The notes under the pieces: generated by a model
The model's database searches: none
What the model was told of the DNA's origin: nothing
The model's input: the letters and a program-made list of their open reading frames with translations, nothing else
Shown: positions 6,165 to 13,393 of the stretch, one piece after another
How the letters are laid out: the number at the start of each line of letters is the position of its first letter
How positions within the stretch are numbered: the first letter of the stretch is position 1
Made by a program: the position numbers and the translations under genes
Assembly (NCBI GenBank): GCA_028286395.1
Contig: JAQBRS010000005.1
Span: forward strand, 124,001 to 188,000
DNA length: 64,000 nt
Direction of reading: 5' to 3'
Source: Candidatus Saccharimonadota bacterium
Lineage (GTDB): Bacteria; Patescibacteriota; Saccharimonadia; Saccharimonadales; Saccharimonadaceae

Positions 6165-7244
6165 TTAACGACTTTTGTCAAAGTTGCTTAGGATGTCCCT
6201 CTGTTTCCTTGAGAGTTTCGTTGGTGTATCAACGACGATATTCACAATATGTGGACCACGCTTGTCGCTATTCATATGAGGGATGCCGTGACCCGAAAGC
6301 TTGAAGTCCGTGCCCGACTGTGTTCCAGCGGGAACTTTCATACGAACAACGCCATCAACTGTCTCGACGTCAATTTCAGCACCAAGTGTCGCATCAATCA
6401 TGCCAACATGCGCTTCGGAGAGGATGATGTCGCCTTCTCGCGTGAATTTCTTATCTGCTTTCACCCGGATATTAACGTACAAGTCACCCTTTTTACCGTC
6501 AGTAATCGCTTCACCACGACCAGAAAGTCGGATGGTTGAACCGTCATCAATTCCTGCAGGAACTTTCAACTTGATAGATTGTTTCTTGCGTTGCGTTCCC
6601 TTACCGTGACAGACTGTACACTCTTTTTCGGGAATCTTGCCACGTCCGTTACAGGTTGGACAGACGACACTCTGCTGGATTGCACCGAACATAGTGTTCA
6701 TGATGCGAGTTTGCTGACCCGCACCCTTACAGGTTGGACAGGTTTTCATATCATAACCAGGTTCGACAGTGGTTCCGTGACAGTGTGGACACTCGTCGTC
6801 GATATCAAGATCAATTTCTGTTTCAAGACCAAAGACGGCCTCTTCAAAGTTTAATTGCAATGTTACTTCAACATCACGACCACGTTGCGGTGCTTGTTGG
6901 CGTTGACCGCCACCGCCAAAGAATTGGCTAAAGATATCCCCGAGGCCATCACCGAAGTCAAAGCTCTGACTGTTAAAGCCTTCGAATGGGTTACTTCCGC
7001 CGCTGTAGCCCCCGCCGCCACTTGATCCGCCAACACCTGCATGACCAAATTGGTCGTAGCGCTGTCGCTTCTGGGCGTCTTTTAAGACATCGTAGGCTTC
7101 GTTTACTTCCTTAAACTTTTCCTCATCACCACCTTCTTTATCTGGGTGATACTTAACAGCAGCCTTGCGATAGGCCTTCTTTAATTCATCGGCACTCGCA
7201 CCTTTTGCGACGCCTAGTACTTCGTAATAGTCACGTTTACTCAT
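6165..7244 (-). CDS. dnaJ: Chaperone DnaJ (Hsp40)
   Basis: 359 residues, type I DnaJ. Order: J-domain with HPD at 33-35, a Gly/Phe-rich linker (about 70-115), four CxxCxGxG zinc-binding motifs (about 145-205, CPHCHG, CPTCKG, CPTCNG, CTVCHG) and the C-terminal substrate-binding domains. It stimulates DnaK ATP hydrolysis and delivers unfolded clients. It is not next to dnaK, which lies 8 kb away, but carries its own CIRCE operator, so HrcA control probably keeps the two in step. Confidence 0.97.
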   Translation of the reverse strand: MSKRDYYEVLGVAKGASADELKKAYRKAAVKYHPDKEGGDEEKFKEVNEAYDVLKDAQKRQRYDQFGHAGVGGSSGGGGYSGGSNPFEGFNSQSFDFGDGLGDIFSQFFGGGGQRQQAPQRGRDVEVTLQLNFEEAVFGLETEIDLDIDDECPHCHGTTVEPGYDMKTCPTCKGAGQQTRIMNTMFGAIQQSVVCPTCNGRGKIPEKECTVCHGKGTQRKKQSIKLKVPAGIDDGSTIRLSGRGEAITDGKKGDLYVNIRVKADKKFTREGDIILSEAHVGMIDATLGAEIDVETVDGVVRMKVPAGTQSGTDFKLSGHGIPHMNSDKRGPHIVNIVVDTPTKLSRKQRDILSNFDKSR

Positions 7245-7252
7245 CTGTTATA

Positions 7253-7281
7253 AGTATATAAAACTAGCACTCAATTGTCTA
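7253..7281 (-). promoter_or_regulatory. dnaJ promoter, -35 inside the CIRCE spacer
   Basis: Minus-strand TAGACA (7276-7281), 17-base spacer, TATACT (7253-7258). The dnaJ ATG (7244) is 8 bases from the -10 box, so the mRNA is probably leaderless. Confidence 0.75.
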
Positions 7282-7290
7282 GAGTGCTAG
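7264..7290. promoter_or_regulatory. CIRCE operator (HrcA site) of dnaJ
   Basis: CTAGCACTC, nine bases, GAGTGCTAG: a perfect 9-9-9 CIRCE palindrome. It overlaps the -35 box and promoter spacer of dnaJ, so bound HrcA would block RNA polymerase directly. Confidence 0.95.
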
Positions 7291-7389
7291 GTTGTTTTCA
7301 TACCGTATATGCTTATATTATATAGTTGTAATTTAAGCAAAAAAAGTATACTATATACTAAATTAATTTGAGAGCTTCAGCGAGCGTGT

Positions 7390-8982
7390 ATGCAACTATT
7401 TAAATCAAAGCTACTTCCCCTCTTTATCCTTGGTGTTTTTGTCGTTGCCACGATTATTCCTTCACTTTCAGGTTTAAGCCTAAATGCATACGCTGCTACC
7501 GCACCCAACACTGGTGCACGAGTCTCATTTACCTTTGACGACGGACTGAGTAGCGCGCTCCTGGCTGCAAACACCCTCAAAACATACGGCTACACTGGTA
7601 CCGACTACGTTATTACTCACTGTGTTGGACTGATTGCCAACGCATCAAATAACGATTGTGCCGCAGACATGACAAAGAATTACATGACCTGGAATGATAT
7701 TGCGACACTTCATACTACCTATGGATGGGAAATTGGCTCACACACAGTCACTCACCCCCTCACCGCTGCTGTCGATAACAAAACGTTAACTGATGCCGGC
7801 CTTGACCAAGAAATGCACAACAGCCAACTAACGCTTCAGGCACAAGGGTATAACGCCTACGATTTCGCCTCCCCATATGGTGACTACGACAACCGTTCAA
7901 TCGCCGTTGCTGCAAAATATTACTATTCCCACCGTACGTTCCAAGACCTTACCTATAGCACTGATCCTATCTCGAATGCATTCCCTTACTACAATCCACG
8001 TAGTAGCTATCCTTACAATAACTACCTGTTAAGTGTCGTTCCTGTTGAAGGTGACGTTTCGGTTGCGACTGTTAAAGGATACATCGACCAAGCAAAAGCT
8101 AGCAACCAATGGGTTATTTTCGTTTTTCACGAGATCAAAGCGGATGGCGATACATCATATGACGCTTCACTGAATGCATACCAATATCGAACTGGGGACC
8201 TTGCAAGCATCGCTGCTTACGTGAAAGCACAAGCTATCCCTGTTGTGAATGTCGAAGACGGGCTCGCAAGTGGGACGAATATCATGCCAAATAGCGGATT
8301 CAACGACGGCATTGCCACAGGCTGGACCACTGATAGCCCAACAACAATCACGGCTGACAAGCAGAGCAGCACCATTCTTGGACACGGAAGCTTCGATGGA
8401 ACAATTACCGGTGCACTCAACAGTATCCTCTTAAAAGGTAGTGCAACCGATACGCACTTATTTTCTCCTAAAGTAACTGTCGCCCCAGGAACGACCTATA
8501 CAATTAAAAACTTTATTAACCTCACGTCTTCAAGCGGCGAGGTGGACTTTTACATTGATGAGTACGATGCTAACGGCGTCGACCTTGGAACGGGACGATA
8601 CGTCGCAGGTATTACAGCTACGAGTAGTACGAGCGACGTCCAGGTTGGTAACGTAAACTTCCTTTACACTCCAACTTCTCCCTCTATTGCGAGTGCTCGC
8701 CTGCAAGTAATCGTTCACGGCGTCGGGACAGTTGCTTATGTTGATAACCTTCAATGGCTGTCACCAAATGGTGCAACAACACCCCCTGTCGTTATTCCTC
8801 CCGTTACTACACCTAAAGCTGGTGACGTAAATGGCGACAGCGTAATTGACGCATTGGACCTCAGTACCGTCCTCACAAACTGGAACAAGACCAGCCAGAC
8901 ACGAGCTCAAGGTGACTTGAACGCAGATGGCACTGTTGACGCATTAGACTTATCGATCATCTTAACGAACTGGAGTAAATAA
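7390..8982 (+). CDS. Secreted polysaccharide deacetylase (NodB/CE4) with C-terminal dockerin
   Basis: 530 residues. Signal peptide 1-36 (cleavage near 'NAYAA'). The NodB domain (40-275) keeps the CE4 motifs: TFDDG (D50, D51), GSHTVTH metal-binding histidines (H118, H122), SPYGDYD, and a VFHE segment. A beta-rich carbohydrate-binding-like module follows (about 290-455), then a Pro/Thr linker. Two type I dockerin repeats end the protein (about 478-530), each with a DxNxDxxxDxxD calcium loop and LTNW helix. CE4 enzymes remove N- or O-acetyl groups from glycans such as poly-GlcNAc or peptidoglycan. The next gene, one base away, encodes a cohesin-like partner. A TATACT box lies at 7347 or 7354. 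Confidence 0.9.
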   Translation: MQLFKSKLLPLFILGVFVVATIIPSLSGLSLNAYAATAPNTGARVSFTFDDGLSSALLAANTLKTYGYTGTDYVITHCVGLIANASNNDCAADMTKNYMTWNDIATLHTTYGWEIGSHTVTHPLTAAVDNKTLTDAGLDQEMHNSQLTLQAQGYNAYDFASPYGDYDNRSIAVAAKYYYSHRTFQDLTYSTDPISNAFPYYNPRSSYPYNNYLLSVVPVEGDVSVATVKGYIDQAKASNQWVIFVFHEIKADGDTSYDASLNAYQYRTGDLASIAAYVKAQAIPVVNVEDGLASGTNIMPNSGFNDGIATGWTTDSPTTITADKQSSTILGHGSFDGTITGALNSILLKGSATDTHLFSPKVTVAPGTTYTIKNFINLTSSSGEVDFYIDEYDANGVDLGTGRYVAGITATSSTSDVQVGNVNFLYTPTSPSIASARLQVIVHGVGTVAYVDNLQWLSPNGATTPPVVIPPVTTPKAGDVNGDSVIDALDLSTVLTNWNKTSQTRAQGDLNADGTVDALDLSIILTNWSK

Positions 8983-8983
8983 T

Positions 8984-9862
8984 ATGAAACGAATCCTTAT
9001 ATCACTCTTAATCGCCGTACTAGCAATTGTCGCCTTGCCAGTGAGCAGTGCGTTTGCTGCTAATCCTGCTAGCTTTTCACTTATACCAAGCGCTAGTTCA
9101 GTCGTAAAAGGTGGCTCATTTACGGTTTCCGTGTACGAAAATGGCGACAATGTTAATGCCGTTACAACAAAGTTAACTTTCAACAGCAGCCTACTTCAAC
9201 TTAACGGCACAAGTTGTGGCGGATCATTTGCTAGCAGTATTACTGAAACTAACGGACAAACTTGTTTTACAGCTGGTGGTTCAACTGTTAACGGAAATGT
9301 TCTTGCACTCAATGCTACGTTCACCGCGCTTTCTACTGGCTCGGCGTCAGTAAGTATTGCCTCTGGTTCAAAGATTGTTTCAAGCGATACAAATACCAAC
9401 ATCTGGAATGGTGCTGCATCAGCAACGAGCGTGACGGTCACCGCGCCAGCAACGACTCCTCCAACGCAACCTACGACTGGTGGCGGATCAGGTTCAACGA
9501 GTGGCTCAACAGGTTCTAGCCCATCTTCAACTGGATCAACCAGCGAAACTACACCAACGACCAACACTTCGTCCACAGGAAGTACTCCCACTCAGACGAC
9601 TAATGGGTCAACCGACTCATCGGCTACAGCAGGCACCGCTGAAGTAAAGTCAGCTACTGATACGAAAAAGACTGCCGCTAGTATCGTGGCGGCTCAATCA
9701 AATGATGCCAGCAAGAAAGCTATCTGGACAATTATGCTACCTTTCTTGATTGCATTCATTGTCTTCATCGCGCTCACTTACCCAGTTATTTTGTCCAACC
9801 TAAAGAAGGCCAAGATAACAAATTTTGTTCGACAAAAGTTCGCAAAAATGACTGGCAAATAA
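8984..9862 (+). CDS. Membrane-anchored cohesin-like surface protein
   Basis: 292 residues. Signal peptide 1-25 (ending AFAA); beta-sandwich domain (about 27-150) with the cohesin-type opening 'VKGGSFTVSVYEN', an internal 'TKLTFNSSLLQ' strand and a closing 'GNVLALNATF' strand. Then a long Ser/Thr/Gly linker (about 155-235), one membrane helix (245-268) and a basic cytoplasmic tail. Cohesins bind dockerins, and the dockerin-bearing deacetylase is immediately upstream, so this probably tethers that enzyme to the cell. The cohesin call rests on fold-like pattern and context; other CBM2/3-superfamily sandwiches could look similar. Confidence 0.75.
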   Translation: MKRILISLLIAVLAIVALPVSSAFAANPASFSLIPSASSVVKGGSFTVSVYENGDNVNAVTTKLTFNSSLLQLNGTSCGGSFASSITETNGQTCFTAGGSTVNGNVLALNATFTALSTGSASVSIASGSKIVSSDTNTNIWNGAASATSVTVTAPATTPPTQPTTGGGSGSTSGSTGSSPSSTGSTSETTPTTNTSSTGSTPTQTTNGSTDSSATAGTAEVKSATDTKKTAASIVAAQSNDASKKAIWTIMLPFLIAFIVFIALTYPVILSNLKKAKITNFVRQKFAKMTGK

Positions 9863-9902
9863 CCCTTTAGAGTTATTAGCATAAGCTTAATATAAAATAT
9901 AG

Positions 9903-9930
9903 TTTACAATAAGTCACTTATATGTATAAT
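9903..9930 (+). promoter_or_regulatory. Promoter of the LPNTG micro-peptide gene
   Basis: TTTACA (9903-9908), 16-base spacer, perfect TATAAT (9925-9930). Predicted start of transcription is about 9937, giving a leader of about 83 bases. Confidence 0.75.
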
Positions 9931-9936
9931 TATGGA

Positions 9937-10019
9937 CAGAGAACCCTGCTTTGCTGGTGACAACGCAGCGCTCGATAAAATAAGGAAAGTAAGGCGTGAG
10001 GCCTTAAAGGGAAAAAATT
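9937..10019 (+). ncRNA. Candidate structured 5' leader upstream of the LPNTG gene
   Basis: The predicted leader contains a strong hairpin TAAGGC-GTGAG-GCCTTA (9990-10006) and a weaker GC-rich fold around CTGC...GCAG (9947-9967), ending in AAAGGGA before the ATG at 10020. A second stem covering the ribosome site is not obvious. I do not recognise it as a known riboswitch; it could simply stabilise an abundant mRNA. Confidence 0.35.
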
Positions 10020-10205
10020 ATGTCAGAGACAGGTAAAGTACTACCCGCAGCAACAGGTCCAACTGCAGCAGGAGCAATATTGCTTCCTAACACAGGCGAT
10101 AACCACGTATTATTTTTTGTAGCACTCGTAACAGTCGTGATCGGATCAGCAATTATCCTTTCAACGCTCGTTCGTCTCGCTGCTAAGAAATTCTACAAAG
10201 CGTAA
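10020..10205 (+). CDS. LPNTG-motif membrane micro-peptide, probable sortase substrate
   Basis: 61 residues. LPNTG at 22-26, one hydrophobic segment (about 31-53) and a basic tail (KKFYKA): the full three-part cell-wall sorting signal with only about 20 residues in front and no separate signal peptide. A sortase gene begins 55 bases downstream. It has its own strong promoter, a structured leader and a terminator, implying high and mostly separate expression. It may be a minimal sortase substrate, or an anchor piece joined to another protein. Confidence 0.75.
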   Translation: MSETGKVLPAATGPTAAGAILLPNTGDNHVLFFVALVTVVIGSAIILSTLVRLAAKKFYKA

Positions 10206-10222
10206 TAACGCACAAATTAAGA

Positions 10223-10256
10223 GAGGGATAAGCTTTTAGGCTGTCCCTTTTTTTAT
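10223..10256 (+). terminator. Intrinsic terminator after the LPNTG gene
   Basis: AGGGA(TA)AGC loop GCT(G)TCCCT followed by seven Ts, ending 5 bases before the sortase ATG. Partial readthrough would be one way to express the downstream sortase and glycosyltransferase genes. Confidence 0.8.
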
Positions 10257-10260
10257 TGCT

Positions 10261-10842
10261 ATGAAAGTACGATTCAATATCACCATTGGCCTATTATTCA
10301 TCCTCGCAGGAGGCCTTCTTGGATCTAGCTATATCATAAACTACGTTCGTGAGTTGAATATTCATACAAACTCTATGCCACAAATTGTCACAACGCGACA
10401 AGCAGAACAGCCTACCGAAGATCAGGCGACCGCCTACCCCACAAACGTTAGTATTCCTTCGGTTAATCTTTCTGTTGCTGTTGATCCTGGCTACTACGAT
10501 GCCGCGTCACAGACATGGACACTCAGCGATACCGCCGCTTTCTTTGCGACGATTAGTACTCCGCCGAATTCGGTATCCGGCGATACGTATATTTATGGCC
10601 ACAACCGTGGTAATGTTTTTAACCCCCTCAATAATGCCGCAATCGGCACAACCGCAGCCGTTGAAACTGCCGACAACAAAACATATACCTATAAATTGAG
10701 TGCGGTTCATGACGTGAAACCAGACGATTCCAGCTGGCTCCTTGGCTATAAAGGCAAACCAATCCTCACCCTCCAAACTTGTGCTGGTTTCTGGGACCAA
10801 TACCGTCGACTCTTCGTGTTTGATTATGTGAGCGAGGTGTAA
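10261..10842 (+). CDS. Sortase family transpeptidase
   Basis: 193 residues. An N-terminal membrane anchor (about 7-27) is followed by a sortase beta-barrel with the catalytic triad in order: His in IYGHN (about 118), Cys in LQTCAG (about 172), Arg in YRRLF (about 182). Sortases cleave LPxTG-type signals and join the protein to an amine on the surface. The LPNTG peptide upstream is the obvious candidate substrate. The ATG follows the terminator T-run with no Shine-Dalgarno sequence. Closest by layout to class D/E-like sortases of Gram-positives, but the class is uncertain. Confidence 0.88.
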   Translation: MKVRFNITIGLLFILAGGLLGSSYIINYVRELNIHTNSMPQIVTTRQAEQPTEDQATAYPTNVSIPSVNLSVAVDPGYYDAASQTWTLSDTAAFFATISTPPNSVSGDTYIYGHNRGNVFNPLNNAAIGTTAAVETADNKTYTYKLSAVHDVKPDDSSWLLGYKGKPILTLQTCAGFWDQYRRLFVFDYVSEV

Positions 10843-10843
10843 T

Positions 10844-12118
10844 ATGTTCCAATCTTTCTTCTTCTATCTATTTATGATCGTCAGCGTCTTTAATACGATT
10901 CACTTTGGTATGTATGTTGTTGGTGCAAATATATACGATATTATGAAATTCCGAACAAAGGAAAAACTCCAAAAGAAACCGCGGGGTATTCGCCCGCTTG
11001 TGACGATTTTGATTCCCGCACATAACGAAGAGGCATCGATTGTTCGCACGCTTGAATCCTTAAAAAAGAATAGTTACCGTAAAAGTGAAATTATCGTGAT
11101 TGATGACGCATCAACTGACGCAACAAAAAAACTTGTTCGTGAGTATATTGTAGCGAACCCAACTCGTAACATTCGTTTGATGTACAAACAAAAAAATGTC
11201 GGTAAAGCCAGCGCACTCAATCATGCACTCCGTCACGGTGTAAATGGCTCGCTTGTGATGACGCTCGATGCAGACTCAACCCTCGATAAAAAGAGTGTCG
11301 CAAACGCAGTCCGTTATTTTGACGATCCGACTATCGTTGGTGTTGCCGCAAATGTGCGCGTTACTGAGGCCAGTAGCATTCTTGGACTTCTGCAAAAGTT
11401 TGAATTCATGATTGGGTATCGAACAAAGAAATTCTTCACCGTGAGTAATAGTGAATTTATTATCGGTGGTGTTGCATCAACTTATCGCATGTCGACGTTA
11501 AAATCTGTTGGTTTTTACGATCACGACATTATCACTGAAGACATCGCACTGAGTATTAAAATTGTTGCGACCGGAAACAAAAAAAATAAAGTCGTGTATG
11601 GCTACGACGTTGTAGCCAAGACCGAAGGTGTCCAAACATTTAAGGATCTCCTAAAACAGCGATACCGCTGGAAAATGGGGAACTTGCAAAGCATCATTAA
11701 GCACCGTCACCTCTTCGCAAACCGTGATGGCAAGTACAGCAAGATGCTCACAATGTATCGAATCCCAATGGCCTTTATTGGTGAAATCCTGCTCCTATTC
11801 GAGCCCATCGTGATTGGGTACGTTATCTATGTATGCATAGTACTAGGGAGTTTATCATTACTTGTTGGATCGTATATTACGATTACTCTCTACCTCGTAT
11901 GGAACATTATGCCCGACGAACACATGAGCTTCATGGATAAGATTCGTATGTGCGCTTACGCTCCTATCATGTACTTCATTATGTATCTGATGAACGTCGT
12001 ACAAGTTGTCGCAGTCGTTCGTTGTCTTTGGAATTACAAAAAGGTTTTGCGCACCACTGCAACCAGTAGTACTTGGCAATCACCAACCCGCATCACAGCA
12101 ACAACTTCTACTTTATAA
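10844..12118 (+). CDS. Processive GT2 glycosyltransferase, PgaC/IcaA-like
   Basis: 424 residues. N-terminal membrane helix (5-30), GT2 catalytic domain (about 50-290) and C-terminal helices. Hallmarks of processive beta-glycan synthases are present: IPAHNEE, IDDASTD, LDADS (DxD), TEDIAL and QRYRWKMGN (QxxRW). Family members polymerise GlcNAc (PgaC, IcaA, NodC) or related sugars while exporting the chain. It starts one base after the sortase stop. Together with the upstream deacetylase it resembles the synthase/deacetylase core of poly-N-acetylglucosamine systems. The last 25 residues are Ser/Thr-rich and overlap the convergent gene. Confidence 0.88.
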   Translation: MFQSFFFYLFMIVSVFNTIHFGMYVVGANIYDIMKFRTKEKLQKKPRGIRPLVTILIPAHNEEASIVRTLESLKKNSYRKSEIIVIDDASTDATKKLVREYIVANPTRNIRLMYKQKNVGKASALNHALRHGVNGSLVMTLDADSTLDKKSVANAVRYFDDPTIVGVAANVRVTEASSILGLLQKFEFMIGYRTKKFFTVSNSEFIIGGVASTYRMSTLKSVGFYDHDIITEDIALSIKIVATGNKKNKVVYGYDVVAKTEGVQTFKDLLKQRYRWKMGNLQSIIKHRHLFANRDGKYSKMLTMYRIPMAFIGEILLLFEPIVIGYVIYVCIVLGSLSLLVGSYITITLYLVWNIMPDEHMSFMDKIRMCAYAPIMYFIMYLMNVVQVVAVVRCLWNYKKVLRTTATSSTWQSPTRITATTSTL

Positions 12119-12371
12119 ACGTCACGAAACTACTGACGAAAAGCACGGTAGCAATAATTCCAATCAAGATGTACTCAATAATCGTATCGCGCGCTAGTTC
12201 ATTATGGCGAATGTGAATGATGCCGTTACCAGCAATGTAAACAGCAAGAAATAACATTGCAACAGCTAGAGAAATATCCCTCACAAAAGCTAGAACGATC
12301 AGAAAAAGACCCGTAATCACGATGGTGAATATCGTATGCAGCTTTAGTTTGCCAACATGTTGTTTTCTCAT
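12108..12371 (-). CDS. Small membrane protein, three helices
   Basis: 87 residues with hydrophobic segments at about 10-28, 32-50 and 64-84. No motif recognised. Its start overlaps the stop of the CAP-protein gene by 4 bases (ATGA type), so it is probably translationally coupled to it. Its 3' end overlaps the convergent glycosyltransferase gene by 11 bases. Confidence 0.65.
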   Translation of the reverse strand: MRKQHVGKLKLHTIFTIVITGLFLIVLAFVRDISLAVAMLFLAVYIAGNGIIHIRHNELARDTIIEYILIGIIATVLFVSSFVTFIK

Positions 12372-13393
12372 AATACCGTTCCGACACCGCTAGAGATCGT
12401 GACAACCAAAACTGCCGCCAATACGATTGCTTGCCCCAGCGGGTGGGCACGTAGCCAAATATTCTTATAACCACGTTTTTGATGTCGCCAGACCAATGTG
12501 TGTTTCATGATAAATAACAATAAAAGCGTGCTCAGAAGAACAATCGAAGCCTTCTGTCCCCAGTTGAGGGATTGGTACACCTTGATCGGCAGTGGCGCTT
12601 CAACGCCTTTGACCGAGCCTTTTGTGTCAGCGACGACTCCTGTAGATGTTTTCTGTGTTGTCGTTGCCGTTATATTTTTCGTCACTTTTTGCGGAGTTGC
12701 TTCAGGTTGCGTTGTCGCAGGCGCAGGCGTTTCAGTAACGGCTGGTGTCGTTGCGGCCGGCTGCGTTGCGGCCGGCGCTGAAGGTGCAACAGGTTGAGCG
12801 GCCGGCGCTGGAGCAGGTACAGCTTGTTGACTTCCATACTCCGCGACAACGAGTGTTGTTTCTTCACCCTGAAGTGTTCCATTCACAACCGCATAACCGA
12901 CATCTTGATAATTCGTATTCAGAATGTTTGCCCTATGCCCCGGACTCGTCATCCAACCCGATACTACACCGTTTGAGGTACTGAAATCCATCGCAAGGTT
13001 TTCACCCGCATATACGTAGTTGTAGCCAGCTTCCTGAATAAATTGCCACGGGGTTTTACCATCAGGTGCATTGTGCGCCCAGTAATCTTTTGCAAACATA
13101 TCATTCGCTTTCGCGAGCGCCGCACTATTTAACTGCGAATTAAGATTTAAAGCAGGTAAGCCTGCGTTAGTTCGTTGTTGATTAGAAATAGTATTGATAT
13201 CTGATACGTTAATATCGATCGCATACCCGAGTACCTGCATTTGATGTGCAGAAAAAACGTTATATGAAAGCTGTGCTACAACGATTAACGACAAAAATAT
13301 CGCCAACCCAGCCGGTCGAAGTGCGATAGGGTGAAAGTTATTCTTTTTGTTTGGCAGAAACAAGTGACGTAGACGCATCGGATAAACCATCAT
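12368..13393 (-). CDS. CAP/SCP-domain extracellular protein with C-terminal membrane helices
   Basis: 341 residues. N-terminal membrane or signal segment (about 25-45), then a CAP domain (about 60-190) with 'NQQRTNAGLPAL', 'AHNAPDGKTPWQF', 'AGENLAMDF' and 'GWMTSPGHRANILN', the usual YkwD/SCP-like pattern. A Pro/Ala/Thr/Gln-rich spacer (about 195-255) leads to two membrane helices near 275-293 and 315-340. The cleft residues (His in AHNAP, Glu in AGEN, His in GHR) are kept. Bacterial CAP proteins are often found at the cell surface; substrates are generally unknown. TATAGT (13401-13406) lies 7 bases before the ATG. Confidence 0.88.
   Translation of the reverse strand: MMVYPMRLRHLFLPNKKNNFHPIALRPAGLAIFLSLIVVAQLSYNVFSAHQMQVLGYAIDINVSDINTISNQQRTNAGLPALNLNSQLNSAALAKANDMFAKDYWAHNAPDGKTPWQFIQEAGYNYVYAGENLAMDFSTSNGVVSGWMTSPGHRANILNTNYQDVGYAVVNGTLQGEETTLVVAEYGSQQAVPAPAPAAQPVAPSAPAATQPAATTPAVTETPAPATTQPEATPQKVTKNITATTTQKTSTGVVADTKGSVKGVEAPLPIKVYQSLNWGQKASIVLLSTLLLLFIMKHTLVWRHQKRGYKNIWLRAHPLGQAIVLAAVLVVTISSGVGTVL

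Follow-up and report, generated by a model that had tools for sequence, protein, structure and literature searches.

The locus

Positions 7390 to 12118 of the 64,000-nucleotide stretch analysed here (the window), which lies on contig C5 of an 852-kb, 99% complete genome of Candidatus Saccharimonadota, hold five open reading frames (ORFs) on the + strand. They encode a secreted deacetylase carrying a dockerin, a membrane-anchored cohesin protein, an LPXTG microprotein, a sortase and a membrane glycosyltransferase of family 2 (GT2). These genes form two modules, a dockerin/cohesin display pair and a microprotein-sortase-GT2 unit, the latter often accompanied by a deacetylase. The cohesin ORF starts one base past the deacetylase stop codon, a 157-base gap containing a promoter-like site separates it from the LPNTG ORF, and the sortase and GT2 ORFs are spaced one base apart. 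The features are listed below (TM, transmembrane segment); loci (L) and genomes (G) are given by our own labels.

7390-8982, + strand: secreted NodB deacetylase (ORF, Pfam, hydropathy, model)
8818-8961, + strand: type I dockerin with two F-hand calcium repeats (profile match 44.6 bits, E 1.5e-11)
8984-9862, + strand: membrane-anchored cohesin protein (homology, profile, AlphaFold2 model, hydropathy)
9059-9454, + strand: cohesin domain, a beta sandwich of some ten strands in the model (family profile E 4.3e-32, model)
9903-9930, + strand: promoter-like site of the microprotein-sortase-GT2 unit (TTTACA/TATAAT, recurrence in orthologous upstream regions)
10020-10205, + strand: 61-residue LPXTG microprotein, predicted sortase substrate (LPXTG_anchor profile)
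10261-10842, + strand: sortase with N-terminal TM (Pfam, hydropathy)
10844-12118, + strand: membrane GT2 of the processive kind (Pfam, NCBIfam, orthologue alignment)

A dockerin-bearing deacetylase and its neighbouring cohesin

Pfam matches the deacetylase to Polysacc_deac_1 (1.2e-11) and Dockerin_1 (1.4e-9), both above cut-off. A signal-like segment (residues 8-26) precedes the NodB domain (residues 41-179 by Pfam, with the conserved region reaching about residue 290), whose catalytic motifs are invariant among the deacetylases compared, and a jelly roll resembling carbohydrate-binding modules (CBM4/16/22-like, about residues 297-460) lies between this domain and a type I dockerin at residues 477-524. 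The dockerin assignment combines the profile match with two calcium-binding F-hand repeats, DVNGDSVIDALD and DLNADGTVDALD, in both of which the calcium ligands D-x-N-x-D...D..D, as read from the translation, are intact. Of the weak full-length model (pLDDT 65), only the CBM-like domain was used; a phmmer search of the deacetylase against the PDB returned nothing at 1e-3.

The adjacent gene encodes a protein with an N-terminal signal-like segment, a cohesin domain, a Ser/Thr/Gly-rich linker, a C-terminal TM (residues 246-264) and a basic tail. Because Pfam is blind to this protein, we checked its identity in three ways, by homology, profile and model. It is homologous to Pfam-positive cohesins of relatives (phmmer 7.5e-26, 2.1e-22 and others), the Pfam cut-off being passed by relatives in 14 genomes, and a family profile (A1, 20 members) matches the solved scaffoldin cohesins 5m2o (9.5e-8) and 5aoz (1.5e-7). 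An AlphaFold2 model of the domain, built with the family alignment, reached a pLDDT of 89.4, and a Foldseek search of the PDB with this model returned cohesins as top matches, the best being 2vo8 (TM-score 0.81). By family profile and predicted fold, the window protein is confirmed as a cohesin. Profile searches of the genome found one cohesin, the window protein, and one dockerin, that of the deacetylase.

We then surveyed 375 genomes of the order. A dockerin was found in 98, a cohesin in 84 and both in 59 (Fisher p 4e-23, a value that overstates independence because the genomes are related). Gene order is stronger evidence for pairing than this p-value: among the matches listed, the two genes lie within 3 kb of each other in 53 of the 59 genomes, and in 36 of 39 pairs no more than 500 bp apart the cohesin is directly downstream on the same strand. 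Outside family f1, to which the window genome belongs, a cohesin is also present in 53 of 59 dockerin genomes. Simple hydropathy scanning assigns a C-terminal TM to most cohesin proteins of the examined loci and to no dockerin protein, save for one borderline segment in L083_4. The dockerin cargo varies by genome and includes deacetylases, an amidase with peptidoglycan-binding repeats (L033), subtilases (L045, L034), a papain-family protease (L182) and Ig-like domains (L036, L023).

The sequence-only reading of this locus had described a NodB deacetylase ending in two dockerin repeats, followed by a membrane-anchored cohesin-like domain in a cellulosome-style pairing. Both proteins are borne out by the analyses above, and fold, profile, co-occurrence and conserved gene order back the pairing, with binding itself predicted. 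It had named failure of the cohesin-like domain to fold and absence of the gene pair from relatives as refutations; instead the domain is modelled with confidence as a cohesin, and the pair is conserved. The search that it proposed for further dockerin proteins in the genome yielded the deacetylase alone.

Comparison of 18 deacetylases, with the xDEYD motif count as a proxy for CBM-like copies, revealed a further difference. The five dockerin-bearing deacetylases (window, L035, L029_6, L083, L099) have one copy, 10 of the 11 dockerin-free deacetylases have two (L090_13 has one), and the divergent L028 pair has none by this motif. In the main group, the dockerin occupies the place of the second CBM-like domain of its relatives. 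On an unrooted tree of 16 NodB domains (L087_2 and L090_13, missed by the cropping motif, are omitted), the dockerin label requires four changes by parsimony, of which well-supported branches force at least two, and is no more clustered than shuffled labels. Because the tree is unrooted, it leaves the direction of dockerin gain or loss unsettled.

Other arrangements of these domains appeared in the survey. At eight family f1 loci (L179, L181, L182, L183, L187, L189, L192, L196), a dockerin gene is followed, at a gap of -7 to +20, by a small anchored protein with a signal-like segment, an Ig-like or unassigned domain and a C-terminal TM. These small proteins are unmatched by the cohesin profile, except for a marginal match in G229 (L187), and are possibly divergent or different dockerin receptors. 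Small EF-hand ORFs or frames of 74-93 residues (L040:2328-2552, L041:9194-9439 and L046 near 8924-9061) matched the dockerin model, have no evident signal peptide and are probably not dockerins. In genome G074 there are seven matches to dockerin and five to cohesin; one of its proteins combines the two domains and a second carries two cohesins (L022:1960-2937 and L031:7254-9332).

Three genomes of genus g130 (G151, G192, G216) encode a protein of 1000-1194 residues that matches cohesin three to five times and carries a dockerin at its C-terminus (L199:2319-8936, L200:2170-8895, L201:1-6400), and two membrane-anchored cohesin proteins adjoin each of them. In the L199 and L200 proteins, Pfam recognises the dockerin and three stretches of cohesin; the L201 call is made from the family cohesin profile, a pattern of dockerin repeats and a dockerin profile match. 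The g130 arrangement is reminiscent of the scaffoldin and anchors of a cellulosome.

The microprotein-sortase-GT2 unit

The 61-residue ORF scores 18.2 bits against LPXTG_anchor (cut-off 15.9) and encodes a short N-terminal tail, the motif LPNTG, one TM and a basic tail, with no signal peptide. Its relatives are 52-65 residues long, many beginning with MY; all have LPxT and one TM, and most have the basic tail. The promoter-like site upstream of the ORF consists of TTTACA (9903-9908), a 16-bp spacer and TATAAT (9925-9930). Its TTTACAnnnnGTCA form recurs in 9 of 31 orthologous microprotein upstream regions versus 0.03 expected, and GCATAAGC (window 9879-9886) in 6 of 31 versus 0.16 expected, with one locus counted twice. 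That a structured RNA leader precedes the microprotein had been considered from the sequence; an Rfam scan of positions 7200-12500 gave no match at E 1.

The sortase has a Pfam Sortase domain (1.7e-17) and an N-terminal TM, and its translation shows candidate His-Cys-Arg residues within YGHN, LTLQTC and YRRLF. It stays under the NCBIfam cut-offs for sortase classes C, D, E and F (33 bits against 160 for class C, 28 against 165 for class D). In the GT2, the motifs D, DxD, TED and QRxRW are invariant in ten orthologues.

The unit recurs in relatives. Of 20 loci picked by GT2 similarity alone, 16 contain the microprotein, and two of the other four (L084, L089) end at a contig end. Across 31 microprotein loci, a set that omits the longer L065 protein, a sortase lies within 300 bp on the same strand in 28, a GT2 within 2.5 kb in 27 and a related deacetylase within 5 kb in 19; these fractions lean high because part of the loci were chosen by sortase or microprotein matches. 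A further contig scan returned mostly distant GT2s; the unit is present at only two of its loci, L099 and L102, and at L101 a GT2 is accompanied by a weak sortase match.

All five genes are present in four loci (window, L035, L083, L099), so that, as the sequence-only reading had it, the sortase, its likely micro-substrate and a processive GT2 do share a locus with the pair. They are collinear in the window, L035 and L099; in L083 the deacetylase and cohesin genes are oriented divergently relative to the other three. The five genes are nevertheless two separable modules: in G074 a single contig carries the pair and the sortase-GT2 unit at a distance of about 146 kb, and in G087 and G082 they are on different contigs.

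Several loci in the range L058 to L069 have related sortases, several of them after a larger LPxT[SG] protein of about 180 residues or more and some before a GT2-like gene, and are a cousin arrangement of the window unit. The window genome itself has a second row outside the window (G000:C5:237200-239086, minus strand) of an LPXTG protein (313-residue frame), a sortase and a GT2, in the gene order of the window unit. Beyond the GT2 gene, a small ORF (12108-12371) is followed by a gene for a CAP/YkwD-family protein on the minus strand (12368-13393), opposite to the GT2 gene.

Relation to known systems

The window pair shares with known cohesin/dockerin pairs (2vn6, 1ohz; the C. perfringens modules 2vo8 and 2jh2) the cohesin fold, a two-repeat calcium dockerin and the combination of a secreted enzyme with a cohesin partner. 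It differs in having one cohesin and one dockerin, a cohesin with its own TM and a NodB deacetylase as cargo. Cellulosomes combine a multi-cohesin scaffoldin with multiple dockerin enzymes; with one cohesin and one dockerin, the window genome has neither. In the OlpA/OlpC-type anchoring scaffoldins of cellulosomes, a cohesin serves as the cell-surface receptor for a dockerin protein and an S-layer domain provides the anchor. Cohesin complexes of this type are among the Foldseek matches of the window model; the window protein likewise resembles a surface receptor but is anchored by a C-terminal TM, and its partner is encoded next door. Patescibacteria are discussed in a camel-rumen paper whose reported cohesins are confined to Firmicutes_A (PMC9177762). 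Our literature search turned up no description of cohesin-dockerin pairs in Saccharibacteria, which is weak evidence, most subscription journals lying outside that search.

Exosortase G (XrtG) systems with associated glycosyltransferases have been described in L. plantarum (PMC12854382) and are, to our knowledge, the nearest known analogue of the sortase-GT2 unit. Both place in a row a substrate with a C-terminal sorting signal, a sorting transpeptidase and a GT2, and the second NCBIfam match of the window GT2 is TIGR03111, an XrtG-associated glycosyltransferase. Unlike those systems, which have an exosortase and a CTERM-domain substrate, the window unit has a cysteine sortase (Pfam Sortase) and an LPXTG signal (LPXTG_anchor), often with a NodB deacetylase attached.

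A proposed mechanism and its rivals

We think it rather probable that the five genes serve a cell-surface polysaccharide, with an enzyme that modifies it held in place by a non-covalent tether. The membrane GT2 would polymerise and export a chain, presumably of the hexosamine type. The secreted deacetylase, which has no anchor of its own, would bind through its dockerin, probably with calcium, to the cohesin encoded by the next gene, whose C-terminal TM would sit in the membrane and so hold the enzyme where the chain emerges. There the CBM-like domain would grip the chain as the NodB domain removes acetyl groups. The LPNTG microprotein may be inserted N-out via its single TM, and the dedicated sortase may cleave it and transfer its N-terminal peptide of about 25 residues to a putative acceptor. 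The observed part of this explanation consists of the domains, the predicted cohesin fold, the gene pairing, the conserved synteny and the position of the dockerin where relatives have a second CBM-like domain; concerted action of all five genes is what we infer from them.

Several results weigh against this explanation. Neither the window cohesin nor any other protein of its genome has a Pfam cohesin match. In family f1 a profile-detectable cohesin is present in 6 of 39 dockerin genomes and none in the other 33, so a dockerin alone does not imply cohesin pairing. Orthologous deacetylases without a dockerin (L047, L049, L070) show no evident anchor, so the unit does not require tethering. The sortase and microprotein may also function without the cohesin pair, and presumably do so where the modules lie apart. 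Polymer identity is affected as well. The sequence-only reading had proposed a poly-GlcNAc-type system, and PgaABCD and IcaADBC do likewise combine a processive GT2 and a NodB-family deacetylase in one locus, PgaC_IcaA being the best NCBIfam match of the GT2. However, this match reaches 161.3 bits against an equivalog cut-off of 422.3, the deacetylase scores 19.3 against 248.35 bits for IcaB, and PgaD (PF13994) was not found in the genome even at E 1 (IcaD models were not searched). With these cut-offs missed and PgaD not found, the poly-GlcNAc reading is not supported as stated, and "PgaC-like" is a name for sequence similarity only. The window further differs from those operons in the dockerin of its deacetylase, the cohesin beside it, and the presence of a sortase and microprotein.

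The pair could alternatively display the deacetylase against the glycan or peptidoglycan of another cell, host or neighbour, with the sortase-GT2 unit merely neighbouring and serving a separate surface function. The same kind of pair carries proteases, an amidase or Ig-like domains elsewhere (L033, L045, L034, L182, L036, L023), the modules are apart in G074, G087 and G082, and in the epibiont S. epibionticum the dockerin protein SEML1_0315 is essential, with host glycans proposed by the authors as its target (PMC10633639). The window deacetylase, however, is related to dockerin-free deacetylases beside sortase-GT2 units, which ties it to such a unit, and four loci keep the five genes together; we regard this alternative as unlikely, if worth keeping in view. 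That the cohesin-like protein is instead a membrane adhesin of cohesin fold which does not bind dockerin, the dockerin being a vestigial calcium module, seems to us quite improbable. It would accord with the sub-threshold Pfam score of the window cohesin and with the many f1 dockerin genes that precede an anchored protein with an Ig-like or unassigned domain in place of a cohesin; the conserved one-to-one adjacency and orientation, the cohesin fold, the intact calcium ligands in both repeats and the single cohesin and single dockerin of the genome all argue the other way. A bolder variant of the tethered-enzyme explanation, which we hold to be improbable, is a new surface-polysaccharide system in which the sortase joins the signal-less peptide to the polymer or its anchor, for example at an amine exposed by deacetylation, while the deacetylase is likewise held by the cohesin.

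Implications

Plant-fibre degraders are the best-known users of cohesin-dockerin pairing. That it also occurs in 59 of 375 sampled genomes of this order of tiny, genome-reduced bacteria, mostly as neighbouring genes and with varied cargo, suggests a general means of displaying secreted proteins non-covalently. Pairing of the window type also suggests where to seek the partner of the essential S. epibionticum dockerin protein (PMC10633639), and the sortase-microprotein-GT2 unit offers a compact, conserved set of genes whose function gene removal and glycan analysis could address.

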